From Planctomycetota bacterium (GTDB lineage: Bacteria > Planctomycetota > Planctomycetia > Pirellulales > PLA5), in the NCBI GenBank assembly GCA_029259895.1, contig JAJDEG010000271.1:1-33078 (forward strand): a DNA stretch of 33,078 nt, in the 5' to 3' direction. Shown here in pieces: positions 553 to 29,884 of this stretch (positions are counted from its first letter, which is position 1; every line of letters starts with the position of its first letter). The notes under the pieces were generated by a model. It was not told the DNA's origin, searched no databases, and saw nothing but the letters and a program-made list of their open reading frames with translations. The position numbers and the translations under genes were made by a program.

Positions 553-2415
553 ATGGATCGGCGAAGGCTACTCTATCCTTTAATCGTCGCGGGAGTCGCG
601 TCTGCGGCACTGCTGACGAACCTGGGCAAGCCCCGGCTGTGGGATCGCGACGAGCCGCGCAATGCGCAGTGCGCCGTGGAAATGCGGGCGCGCGGCGATT
701 GGGTCGTGCCGACGTTCAACGACGAACTTCGCGCGCACAAGCCGGTGCTGCTCTATTGGCTAATGCTCGCGGCGTACGAGGCGTTTGGCGAGACGGAATT
801 CGCGGCCCGGCTTCCATCGGCATTGCTGGGCATGGCGACGGTGTTGGTCGTCCTAGCGATGGGGTGGCGGCTGTTTTCGCCGCGCGCCGGCCTGTGGGCA
901 GGATTGATTCTGGCTACGTCGCTGAGTTTCGATATTGCCGGCCGCGCGGCTACGCCGGACGCGGCGCTGTTGTTCTGCGTGACGGCGACGATGGGGGCGT
1001 TCGTTCTTGCGGCGAAGTGGCCGACGGGCGATTCGAGAAGTTCTAGCGTTGGCGTCTTCGTGCCGCCGAGTTTCGTTGGTTGGATTGGTGTCTATGCGAT
1101 GCTGGGGCTGGCCGTTCTAGCGAAAGGGCCGGTGGGATTGGTGCTCGGCGTTGCGATTATCGGTCTCTATTTGCTAGTTTGCCGCGAATCGAATCATTGC
1201 GGGGGGCGGATCCTTTCGCCGAATACGTTTGTCGGCAAGACGGTCGGCGAAAGGATTCGCCTCCTACAATTGCGTCAACTCGCGAGCCGATTGGTGACGG
1301 AGATCGCGGTCACCATGCATCCACGTCGCATTGCGACGACGGCGTGGCGGATGCGGCCGCTGACGCTTGCGGCCGTCGTGCTCGCTGTCGCCGCGCCGTG
1401 GTACGTCGCCGTGCATCTGGCGACCGGTGGCGCGTTTACCGACGAGTTCTTCTTCCGCCACAACTTCGAGCGAGCAACCAGCGCGATGGAAGGCCATCGC
1501 GGGCCGGTCGTGTATTACTTCGGTGCAGCGCTGGTCGGTTTCTTCCCGTGGTCGATATTCGCGGCACCGGTTGCGATTGAAACGTTTTACTTGCTGCGGT
1601 TGCGTGGGCGAGAATCGGCTGGCGCGACGTTCGCGCTATGCTGGGCTGGCGTTTGGGTGGCTGCGTTTTCGTTGGTTGGCACGAAATTGCCCAGCTACAT
1701 CACGCCGGCATACCCTGCGTTGGCGTTGCTTGCCGGTTTGTACGTCGATCGATGGCTTGCCGGAACGTCCGCCGCCGCGGCGCGTTGGACGCCGTGGGTG
1801 CTCATCGCGCTGGCGACGGTGGGCGGAGGAATTGCGTTGGGACTGCCGGTCGTGGCGCGGCACTTTCTGCCAGGCGATGAAGTGTTGGCGTTGCTGGGAC
1901 TCATTCCTCTGGTGACGGCGGGGGCCGCTTGGTGGTGTGTGCGGCGTGGCAATGCTTCGTTCGCCGCGACGACGCTGGCCGTCGGTGCAACCGTGCTGGT
2001 CGTCGCCACATTTGGCTTTGCTCAGGTGCGGGTCGATCGCCGGCAGATCAGCGAGGAACTGGCAACGCTCGTGCGGCGCGATGGCGGTGAGCGTTGCCAA
2101 TTCGCGGCGTTTCGGGAACTCGAACCGAGCATGGTTTACTACGCCGGCCAACCGATCGCGACGCTCGTTGATCCATCGGCGGCCGGAGAGATGTTCGATA
2201 AGCACGAACGAGCGTATTTGCTGGCTAGCGGCGACGACCTTGCCGAACTTCGCCTGTATCTACCGACGGACGTCGACGTTGTCGCTCGGCGGCCCAAGTT
2301 CTTGAAAGAGGGCGACGTCGTCTTGCTCGCCCGCACGCCGCAGACACTGGCGCGTCGGCGTGAGGCGGCCAGGGCGATTCGCATCGCGGAAGACAAAGAC
2401 ACTAGCGTACGCTGA
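553..2415 (+). CDS. ArnT-like (GT83/PMT family) polytopic glycosyltransferase
   Basis: The 620-residue product is a multi-pass membrane protein. An N-terminal membrane helix is followed by WDRDEPRNA (about residues 31-39), the acidic catalytic loop typical of ArnT/PMT GT-C enzymes. KPVLLYWL and ARLPSALLG next to it are also typical of this family. Some ten or more hydrophobic segments follow to about residue 500, then a short soluble tail. ArnT-type enzymes transfer a sugar from a polyprenyl-phosphate carrier to lipid A, lipid or protein on the outer face of the membrane. The acceptor here cannot be told. A hydrophilic stretch at about residues 216-240 is encoded by an inverted-repeat element (listed separately), so this loop is probably an insertion. 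The gene is followed after 56 bp by a secreted propeller protein on the same strand and diverges from a PAP2 phosphatase. Confidence 0.85.
   Translation: MDRRRLLYPLIVAGVASAALLTNLGKPRLWDRDEPRNAQCAVEMRARGDWVVPTFNDELRAHKPVLLYWLMLAAYEAFGETEFAARLPSALLGMATVLVVLAMGWRLFSPRAGLWAGLILATSLSFDIAGRAATPDAALLFCVTATMGAFVLAAKWPTGDSRSSSVGVFVPPSFVGWIGVYAMLGLAVLAKGPVGLVLGVAIIGLYLLVCRESNHCGGRILSPNTFVGKTVGERIRLLQLRQLASRLVTEIAVTMHPRRIATTAWRMRPLTLAAVVLAVAAPWYVAVHLATGGAFTDEFFFRHNFERATSAMEGHRGPVVYYFGAALVGFFPWSIFAAPVAIETFYLLRLRGRESAGATFALCWAGVWVAAFSLVGTKLPSYITPAYPALALLAGLYVDRWLAGTSAAAARWTPWVLIALATVGGGIALGLPVVARHFLPGDEVLALLGLIPLVTAGAAWWCVRRGNASFAATTLAVGATVLVVATFGFAQVRVDRRQISEELATLVRRDGGERCQFAAFRELEPSMVYYAGQPIATLVDPSAAGEMFDKHERAYLLASGDDLAELRLYLPTDVDVVARRPKFLKEGDVVLLARTPQTLARRREAARAIRIAEDKDTSVR
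1202..1268 (+). repeat. in-frame inverted-repeat element inside the glycosyltransferase gene
   Basis: Bases 1202-1222 and 1244-1264 form a 21-bp inverted repeat around a 21-base loop. The 13-bp core, ATCCTTTCGCCGA against TCGGCGAAAGGAT, is perfect. The only two mismatches are G-T pairs that would still pair in RNA. The right arm and its flank (1244-1268) match 23 of 25 bases at 20188-20212, in a gap without genes. The element encodes a hydrophilic loop (about GRILSPNTFVG and GERIRLLQ) in a protein that is otherwise mostly membrane segments. This suggests a mobile palindromic element that landed in frame. Confidence 0.7.
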
Positions 2416-19830: not shown

Positions 19831-20346
19831 GGTCGACGCTCCTGGGCATATTGCCCGACTTTGGCGTGCCCGGTCTCCGAAGATGCCGAGTTCGCGCCGG
19901 CGAGATTCATTGCGGCGATGTAGGAGGATACCGGAAACGTACGTGGCGTTGCAGCGGGATAGCGCGCGGGGGTACTGCGATCTGCGTGAATTCGTGCGGC
20001 GTCTGGCCGCGCAGAGCGTGATTGCCAAAATGGGGGGTGCGGGCTTTGGCATGGCGATTGGCTAGCTTTGACGGTATATAAAGCTGCGCTGGATCGTCGG
20101 CGAATGACTACAATTGCGATTAACGCGACGAACATGCGGCGGTGTCGGCGTGGCCGATTGCCGTTGAAGCGTCGATTGGCGGTATCTTCGGCGAGGGGAT
20201 TCGCCTCCTACAGCCAGAAGCACACGCCAGCCAGTAGCACACGCGATTTCTTTCCGGATAGACACTAAAAGTTTTTTTCGGGCGGTTCTTATCGGGTCGC
20301 CGCTTGATACTGCAAGCTCTGAGCGGTTATCGCCGCATTAAAAGTC
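19831..20346. other. 516-base gap between fabG-like and sulfite reductase genes
   Basis: No supported ORF was found; short track ORFs lack motifs. The gap holds one arm of the repeat found in the glycosyltransferase gene (20188-20212), a TACAAT box at 20109-20114 and an isolated T-run near 20270-20277 with no hairpin before it. TTGATA at 20304 has no good -10 partner. No riboswitch consensus was recognised ahead of the sulfite reductase. Confidence 0.4.
20188..20212 (+). repeat. single-arm copy of the repeat inside the glycosyltransferase gene
   Basis: These 25 bases match 1244-1268 at 23 positions; both share GGATTCGCCTCCTACA. The left arm of the palindrome is not seen here, so this is a solo or decayed copy. 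It shows that the sequence is dispersed and not specific to the membrane protein gene. Confidence 0.6.
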
Positions 20347-22140
20347 ATGTCCGATTCAACTATCGATACGCCCGTTACGTCTGCCGCTAAGAAACCGAGC
20401 GCCGTTGAAACCGCGAAGCTTTCGAGCGACTATCTTCGCGGTCCGATCGCCGAGGAACTCGTCGACGATCAGGATTTTTTCGGCAAGGCGAGCATCAATC
20501 TGCTCAAGCACCACGGCACGTACCAGCAGGACGACCGGGAGAATCGCGTAAAGACGGAGGGTGGCAAGTCGCAAAAGTCGTACATGTTCATGGTCCGTAC
20601 GAAGATACCCGGCGGCAAGTTGACGGCGGATCAGTTGCTGGCGGAACTCGACCTATGCGACGAGATTGGCGACACAACGCTGCGCGTCACTACGCGGCAA
20701 GGATTGCAGCTTCACGGCGTGATCAAGCGGAATTTGAAGCAGGCGATCGCGCGGATTAACGAGGTGCAGCTTTCGACGCTGGCGGCTTGCGGCGATGTGG
20801 AGCGCAACGTGATGTGCTGCCCTGCGCCGCACCGCCAAGATGCGGTGCATCAGCAGTTGCAGGATTTGGCCGACGCGCTAGCCGCGCACCTTTGCCCACG
20901 GACGACCGCGTATCACGAAATCTGGCTGCGCGATGGTGAGAGCGGCGAAGACACGCTGGTGGGCGGCGGCGCGAATGGGCAAGCGGCCAGCGGCGACCAC
21001 ACGCCGGGCGGTGATGAGGTCGAACCGATCTACGGTAAGACATACCTTCCGCGCAAGTTCAAGACGGCGATCGGTCTGCCGGACGATAACTGCGTCGATC
21101 TCTATGCCAACGACCTGGGGTTCATGGCGATCTGCGAGGAATTCAAGATCGTCGGCTACAACGTGCTGGTGGGGGGCGGGTTCGGCGTTACGCCGAGCGC
21201 AAAGAAGACGTTTCCGGCGATCGCAAAGCGGATGGCCTACTGCACGCCCGAGGACGCCGTCGACGTGGCGACCGCGGTGGTAAAGGTGTTTCGCGACTTC
21301 GGCAATCGGAGCGACCGCAAGCAAGCCAGACTGAAATATCTGATTCACGAGCGCGGGCTGCCGTGGTTTAAGGCCAAGGTGGAGGAGTATCTGGGGCACG
21401 CGCTGGCCGACCCGCACGCCGACGACGTTCGCGGATTCGACGATCATCTCGGTTGGAGCGCGCAGGGCGACGGACGTTGGTGCTATGGTTTGAACGTCGA
21501 GAACGGGCGGATTGCCGACCGCGACGGCTGGAAGCTGAAATCTGCGCTGAGGGCGATCTGTCGCGAATTGAAGCCGGGCATTCGGCTAACGTCGCATCAG
21601 AGTATCCTGTTCACGGATATTGCGGCCCATCAACGTGGGCGGTTGCAGGAGATTCTTAGCGGCCACGGCGTGAAGCTGTCCGAAGAGGTTTCGACGGTTC
21701 GTCGCTGGTCGATGGCGTGCGTTGCCTGGCCGACTTGCGGCTTAGCGATTACGGAGAGCGAGCGTGCGCTGCCGGGGCTGATCGATCAGTTGGAAATCGA
21801 GCTAGCGCGGCTAGGGCTGTCGGACGAGGCGTTCACGGTTCGGATGACGGGCTGCCCGAACGGCTGTGCACGTCCGTACAACAGCGACGTTGGCCTGGTG
21901 GGGAAGGCGCAGGGGAAGTACACGGTTTTGCTGGGCGGGCGGCTGTTGGGCGATCGGCTAAATGTCATCTACAAGGACCTCGTGGCGGCCGAAGATATTG
22001 TGCCGACGCTGGTGCCCGTGCTGGCGTATTTCAAGCACGAGCGGACGTCTGGGGAGAAATTCGGCGATTTCTGCGATCGCAAGGGCGTCGATGATTTGGG
22101 ACGCTGGAGCGAGCAGTATGTTGCGCGTTCGTCACCGTAG
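20347..22140 (+). CDS. assimilatory sulfite reductase, siroheme/4Fe-4S hemoprotein
   Basis: The 597-residue protein is of the nitrite/sulfite reductase family and reduces sulfite to sulfide with six electrons. TTRQGLQLHGVIKRNLKQ is the substrate and siroheme loop of the first half. ERNVMCCPAP follows. The [4Fe-4S]-siroheme ligands are Cys-458 and Cys-464 (CVAWPTC) and Cys-503 and Cys-507 (TGCPNGCARPY), with canonical spacing. TGCPNGCARPY followed by a GLVG-x-x-x-GKY region is more like sulfite than nitrite reductases. The start has no good ribosome site. A Gly-rich segment (DTLVGGGANGQAASG) before EPIYGKTYLPRKF appears to be a local insertion. No CysJ flavoprotein lies beside it, so ferredoxin may be the donor. 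It converges on the CopZ-like gene with a 25-base gap. Confidence 0.92.
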   Translation: MSDSTIDTPVTSAAKKPSAVETAKLSSDYLRGPIAEELVDDQDFFGKASINLLKHHGTYQQDDRENRVKTEGGKSQKSYMFMVRTKIPGGKLTADQLLAELDLCDEIGDTTLRVTTRQGLQLHGVIKRNLKQAIARINEVQLSTLAACGDVERNVMCCPAPHRQDAVHQQLQDLADALAAHLCPRTTAYHEIWLRDGESGEDTLVGGGANGQAASGDHTPGGDEVEPIYGKTYLPRKFKTAIGLPDDNCVDLYANDLGFMAICEEFKIVGYNVLVGGGFGVTPSAKKTFPAIAKRMAYCTPEDAVDVATAVVKVFRDFGNRSDRKQARLKYLIHERGLPWFKAKVEEYLGHALADPHADDVRGFDDHLGWSAQGDGRWCYGLNVENGRIADRDGWKLKSALRAICRELKPGIRLTSHQSILFTDIAAHQRGRLQEILSGHGVKLSEEVSTVRRWSMACVAWPTCGLAITESERALPGLIDQLEIELARLGLSDEAFTVRMTGCPNGCARPYNSDVGLVGKAQGKYTVLLGGRLLGDRLNVIYKDLVAAEDIVPTLVPVLAYFKHERTSGEKFGDFCDRKGVDDLGRWSEQYVARSSP

Positions 22141-29750: not shown

Positions 29751-29779
29751 GGGCGCGGTCGATGCGGCAAAAGCTTGTG

Positions 29780-29873
29780 GGGTGGGTCGAACGAAGTGAG
29801 GACCATCGTCTCGCCCACCGTGCTTTTCGTCCTACAGCGGCGCGTGGTGGGCCTCACTTCGTTCGACCCACCC
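29780..29873. repeat. MITE-like element with perfect 22-bp terminal inverted repeats
   Basis: GGGTGGGTCGAACGAAGTGA and two further G bases (29780-29801) are perfectly repeated in inverse at 29852-29873, around a 50-base centre. CCCACC and GGTGGG inside the centre could extend the fold. It lies between the convergent MoeB-like gene and the secreted dockerin-like/MBL gene, where the hairpin may also end transcription from both sides. Track ORF 29747-30148 begins with its translation (VGWVERSEDHR). The sequence style matches dispersed palindromes common in planctomycete genomes. Confidence 0.8.
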
Positions 29874-29884
29874 TACGTTCGTTA

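Follow-up and report, generated by a model that had tools for sequence, protein, structure and literature searches.

An in-frame REPIN, probably spread by a RAYT transposase, in a loop of an ArnT-like glycosyltransferase gene of a planctomycete

The palindromic repeat inside a glycosyltransferase gene of the window (the whole 33,078-nucleotide stretch of planctomycete DNA that was analysed) is a REPIN, consisting of two inverted GTAG-headed REPs with the layout of GTAG-tagged REPs. We propose, with a probability of roughly 0.9, that REPINs of this family were spread by a RAYT transposase, that one copy was tolerated in a loop of the ArnT-like protein with the reading frame kept, and that this copy is now decaying. 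Within genomes of this genus, RAYT/TnpA-REP would have spread the REPIN copies, probably by acting on single-stranded hairpins and cutting beside the GTAG head. One copy would then have landed in a variable inter-helix loop of the glycosyltransferase, where it would have added 24 residues and left the gene unbroken, because the frame used contains no stop and the downstream frame is kept. It appears to persist there as a tolerated, probably near-neutral insertion in which decay has begun. The features on which this reading draws are listed in Table 1.

Table 1. Features of the repeat family in the window and in other coding sequences. Positions are those of the window unless a locus is given; G000 is the window's own genome and G001 the same-genus MAG PLA5.
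Feature	Position	Strand	Description
Host gene	553..2415	+	Polytopic ArnT/PMT-like glycosyltransferase, 620 aa; ORF, Pfam and PDB match
Whole palindrome	1196..1270	.	Imperfect; includes ATT/AAT beyond the GTAG heads
REPIN	1199..1267	+	Inverted REP doublet, 69 bp, inside the codons for CGGRILSPNTFVGKTVGERIRLLQ (residues 216-239)
Left REP	1199..1222	+	Degenerate; head GCGG, not GTAG; 4 mismatches to consensus
Spacer/loop of REPIN	1223..1243	+	21 nt, variable between copies
Right REP	1244..1267	-	Perfect consensus GTAGGAGGCGAATCCTTTCGCCGA
Lone REP	20188..20211	-	Intergenic, same family, 2 mismatches, unpaired; a minus-strand ORF on one side, the ORF that begins at 20347 on the other
Lone REP	L122:1976-1999 (G000 C431)		In frame, AddB/UvrD-like helicase gene
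REPIN	L146:2065-2133 (G001)		In frame, 4-alpha-glucanotransferase (MalQ) gene
REPIN	L074:1455-1524 (G001)		In frame, peptidase U32 gene
REPIN	L131:1919-1988 (G001)		In frame, FabA-like gene

The initial annotation had placed the repeat within the coding sequence of a polytopic membrane glycosyltransferase, and this was borne out, since the ORF stays open throughout the repeat, with coding-like codon scores on either side of it. The host protein scored above the cut-off for both PMT_2 (46.5 bits) and PMT (37.9 bits) in Pfam, and in the PDB it matched ArnT 5ezm (E=1.7e-24). A related-locus search of the named genomes with the glycosyltransferase confirmed no relative.

The 21-bp arms first described (1202-1222 and 1244-1264) do pair with two mismatches, both of them G.U-compatible. 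The natural unit of the element is 1199-1267, the first three bases of which (1199-1201) fall just short of the bounds originally given, 1202-1268. The arms of the whole palindrome are 27 nt long and 85 % complementary, and its folding was compared with that of shuffled sequences, giving z-scores of -8.2 for RNA and -6.1 for DNA; none of 200 shuffled sequences reached the same stability. A single consensus arm also folds alone, as GTAG-GA-[GGCGAA]-TCCT-[TTCGCC]-GA. In the window copy this structure is intact only in the right arm, the left REP having lost its own hairpin. Read as codons, the changes in the left REP were TGT>TGC and CGA>CGG, both synonymous, and AGG>GGG, which occurred twice. 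The modal doublet length was 69 bp in the window's genome and in G001 alike. An Rfam scan of the window gave no match.

Genome-wide counts of the arm revealed a dispersed repeat family. In the 7.19-Mb genome of the window, the right arm had 64 matches at up to 3 mismatches, almost evenly divided between strands (33 plus, 31 minus), compared with 0 for a reversed control pattern; the possibility that the genome holds no further copies was thereby excluded. The same-genus genome G001 contained 200 arms. The reported similarity of the right arm to an intergenic site at 20188-20212 was reproduced exactly, with 23 of 25 bases identical. Extracted copies showed inverted pairs of the form TGTAGGAGGCGAATCCTTTCGCCGA-N21-TCGGCGAAAGGATTCGCCTCCTACA. 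Doublets made up 24 of the 50 distinct elements read in the window's genome and 67 of 78 in G001, the latter being a sample taken from the best matches, and nearly all measured 68-71 bp from GTAG to CTAC. Many copies, including that of the window, had unrelated flanks. At up to 2 mismatches the REP pattern was present in 7 of the 98 genomes searched, indicating that the REP sequence itself is narrowly distributed.

The peptide encoded by the REPIN was absent from homologues of the host protein. It had been suggested that residues of about 216-240 might be missing from relatives, and indeed none of 29 homologues (the G001 orthologue and 28 more distant proteins) possessed the 24-residue peptide (216-239), ruling out a loop shared among orthologues. 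The G001 orthologue (63 % identity) aligned to residues 1-211 and 253-608 and was without the peptide, and the window's own protein aligned normally with the homologues once the peptide was removed. Between the conserved anchors lie 75 residues in the window's protein, or 51 once the REPIN peptide is left out; the sister species has 41, and the homologues have a median of 58. Two homologues had loops equally long or longer but unrelated in sequence. In ArnT 5ezm, host residues 212 and 265 map to residues 227 and 231, which are only four apart. This general variability in loop length would account for the toleration of the insertion. No DNA-level empty site was seen for the host gene, the nearest genome being ~63 % identical in protein and its loop also shorter.

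The repeat family was linked to a RAYT transposase in the sister genome. The RAYT gene of G001 (C26:6889-7413; MAG Planctomycetota bacterium PLA5, contig QEVJ01000074.1) scored 119 bits on profile NF047646 (cut-off 80), and its best PDB match was TnpA-REP 4er8. It is flanked by one REP ~20 bp upstream of the ATG and by a REPIN that ends ~17 bp beyond the stop. RAYT homologues with 44-58 % identity were found in six further genomes from this order, and REPs of the same layout, headed GTAG or GTGG, were near all six and at both ends in five; their stems were altered yet paired (GGCGGC/GCCGCC, GGCGTC/GACGCC, GGCGAC/GTCGCC, GGGCTC/GAGCCC). Among the 59 RAYT loci with full flanks in the named genomes, a GTAG/GTGG hairpin lay within 250 bp on both sides in 25, compared with 1 of 59 control windows placed farther out. 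Across 7 RAYTs, neither the HxH motif nor the tyrosine that aligns to Y115 of E. coli varied. The dinucleotide preceding GTAG in G001 was mainly CT (C at 110 and T at 120 of 133 ends), and this CT in the REP family of the PLA5 genus corresponds to the published cleavage site of TnpA-REP, which cuts in vitro at a CT dinucleotide (PMC8266576). In the window copy, however, the preceding dinucleotide is TT.

A Pfam search of the window's own genome with PF01797 (Y1_Tnp) returned nothing, in an assembly 92.75 % complete and divided into 791 contigs. The only RAYT-like ORF there (C686:4430-4885, L217) encodes a distant protein of 186 aa with 28-37 % identity, and no copy of the window's REP was found near it. 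Other short repeats, bearing GGTCTCC/GGAGACC motifs, surround this ORF. Loss of RAYT with persistence of the REPs is one explanation that would account for the missing cognate transposase. Such a loss from the window's lineage is possible, as is a gap in the assembly, and the incompleteness of the latter leaves the absence unproven. With a left head that has decayed to GCGG, and with no cognate RAYT found in the assembly that carries it, the window copy is probably immobile and near-neutral.

Copies of the family largely avoided genes. A test of codon scores placed 6 of the 128 elements inside a coding ORF, whereas for random segments of 69 bp drawn from the same loci the genic share was 58 % (G000) and 70 % (G001), a more than 10-fold depletion. 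The in-gene copies therefore look like rare tolerated insertions, that is, survivors. Of the original picture of a mobile palindrome able to enter genes without breaking them, the dispersal and the in-frame insertion were upheld, and extended to other genes (Table 1), but any tendency to seek genes was contradicted by the low genic share. For MalQ, an empty site was sought in two genomes; G000 has a different, shorter filler at this place without a REP remnant, and G002 has no filler at all. The MalQ comparison is supportive of insertion, though without an exact empty site. In each of the four clear in-gene doublets (the window copy and three in G001), translation reads the left arm in one and the same frame. 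A fixed reading-frame preference was considered on this account and set aside, since with two frames open, four cases do not reach significance. A more far-reaching proposal, in which the REPIN population outlived its transposase in one lineage and supplied housekeeping enzymes (ArnT-like, AddB, MalQ, FabA-like and U32 peptidase) with new in-frame loops, of which some became functional, appears to us very improbable.

Other origins of the in-gene repeat were weighed against the same observations. If the loop were ancestral and functional, and its palindromy coincidental or due to a selected RNA structure, the open ORF and the synonymous nature of two of the four left-arm changes would be expected; however, the peptide occurs in 0 of 29 homologues and the same DNA is found at dozens of unrelated places, and the genome-wide copies refute this reading, to which we give practically no credence. 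Co-option of the inserted REPIN under selection, for example as a regulatory mRNA hairpin or as a protein loop, would be in keeping with the very stable hairpin of the coding strand and with arms that pair along their whole length, but we judge it quite unlikely given the 4 mismatches in the left arm, the vanished GTAG head and a loop that varies freely among homologues. Misjoining of a repeat into the gene during assembly is a concern with 791 contigs, since repeats break assemblies, yet both flanks belong to the same gene and are collinear with the orthologue (1-211, 253-608) with the frame kept, and the window copy is diverged from the consensus in its left arm; an artefact is accordingly extremely unlikely.

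It is also very unlikely that the element is a MITE of a classical DDE insertion sequence, with outer inverted ends CTTAGNGCCTATCCCA and the whole unit moved by a DDE transposase. The outer end did have 18 matches in the window's genome at up to 2 mismatches, mostly adjoining the repeat, but the control for this pattern gave 10, so that part of the matches could be due to chance. Moreover, the outer ends are present on only a minority of copies and absent from many, including the window's, no parent insertion sequence with such ends was identified among the data examined, and it is the REP that is found flanking RAYT genes in several genomes. Around ten copies carry the extra outer end (G000 C25, C427, C305, C613 and others; L233-L250), some of them with deleted cores. 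These ends were considered as the trace of a parent insertion sequence and set aside, being confined to a minority of copies, perhaps partly fortuitous and in some cases on deletion derivatives.

REPINs were described in Pseudomonas fluorescens SBW25 as two inverted REPs forming a hairpin (PMC3116915). The family described here resembles them in its inverted REPs, its hairpin, its tens to hundreds of copies and a RAYT flanked by the same REP, and the doublet size is similar to that of SBW25 (GI spacing peak 71 bp, PMC3116915). It differs in its REP sequence, its planctomycete-like host, the intragenic position of the window copy and the fact that no cognate RAYT was found in the window genome. 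The GTAG-tagged REP superfamily, characterized by a GTAG head and a short stem-loop, extends to the PVC superphylum including Planctomycetes (PMC3733652). Intragenic GTAG and CGTC REPs, among them dimers coding 20-30 aa, were reported in 2013, many of them in DNA repair genes (PMC3733652). The GTAG head, the stem-loop and the intragenic dimer are shared with that superfamily, and the AddB copy fits the excess in repair genes; the host genes differ from those reported, and the kinship with the superfamily, of which 24 GTAG families are published, is one of layout.

The parallel initially drawn with the palindromic elements (RPEs) of Rickettsia applies to the outcome, as both are palindromic and lie in frame inside ORFs of likely functional proteins, but does not extend to membership. 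A CGTC tag marks the Rickettsia RPEs, and REPs of the CGTC type are without a dedicated transposase (PMC3733652), whereas the present family has a GTAG head and no CGTC tag, is linked to RAYT and has copies that avoid genes.

The basic phenomenon of intragenic REPs and REPINs is already published, and the present case adds to that kind. It contributes a REP/RAYT family in Pirellulales-related planctomycetes, in which the stems vary between RAYT homologues yet stay paired, together with clear cases of REPINs translated as protein. As the transposase is present in one of the two genomes and apparently missing from the other, comparing them could reveal how REPIN populations decay once RAYT is lost.

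The window holds another palindrome at 29777-29876, likewise with arms headed by GTAG (GTAGGGTGGGTCGAACGAAGTGAGGCCCA). Its arms had 135 matches in the genome at up to 3 mismatches, against 0 for the control, and some formed inverted pairs ~52 bp apart. This palindrome likely represents a second REPIN family.
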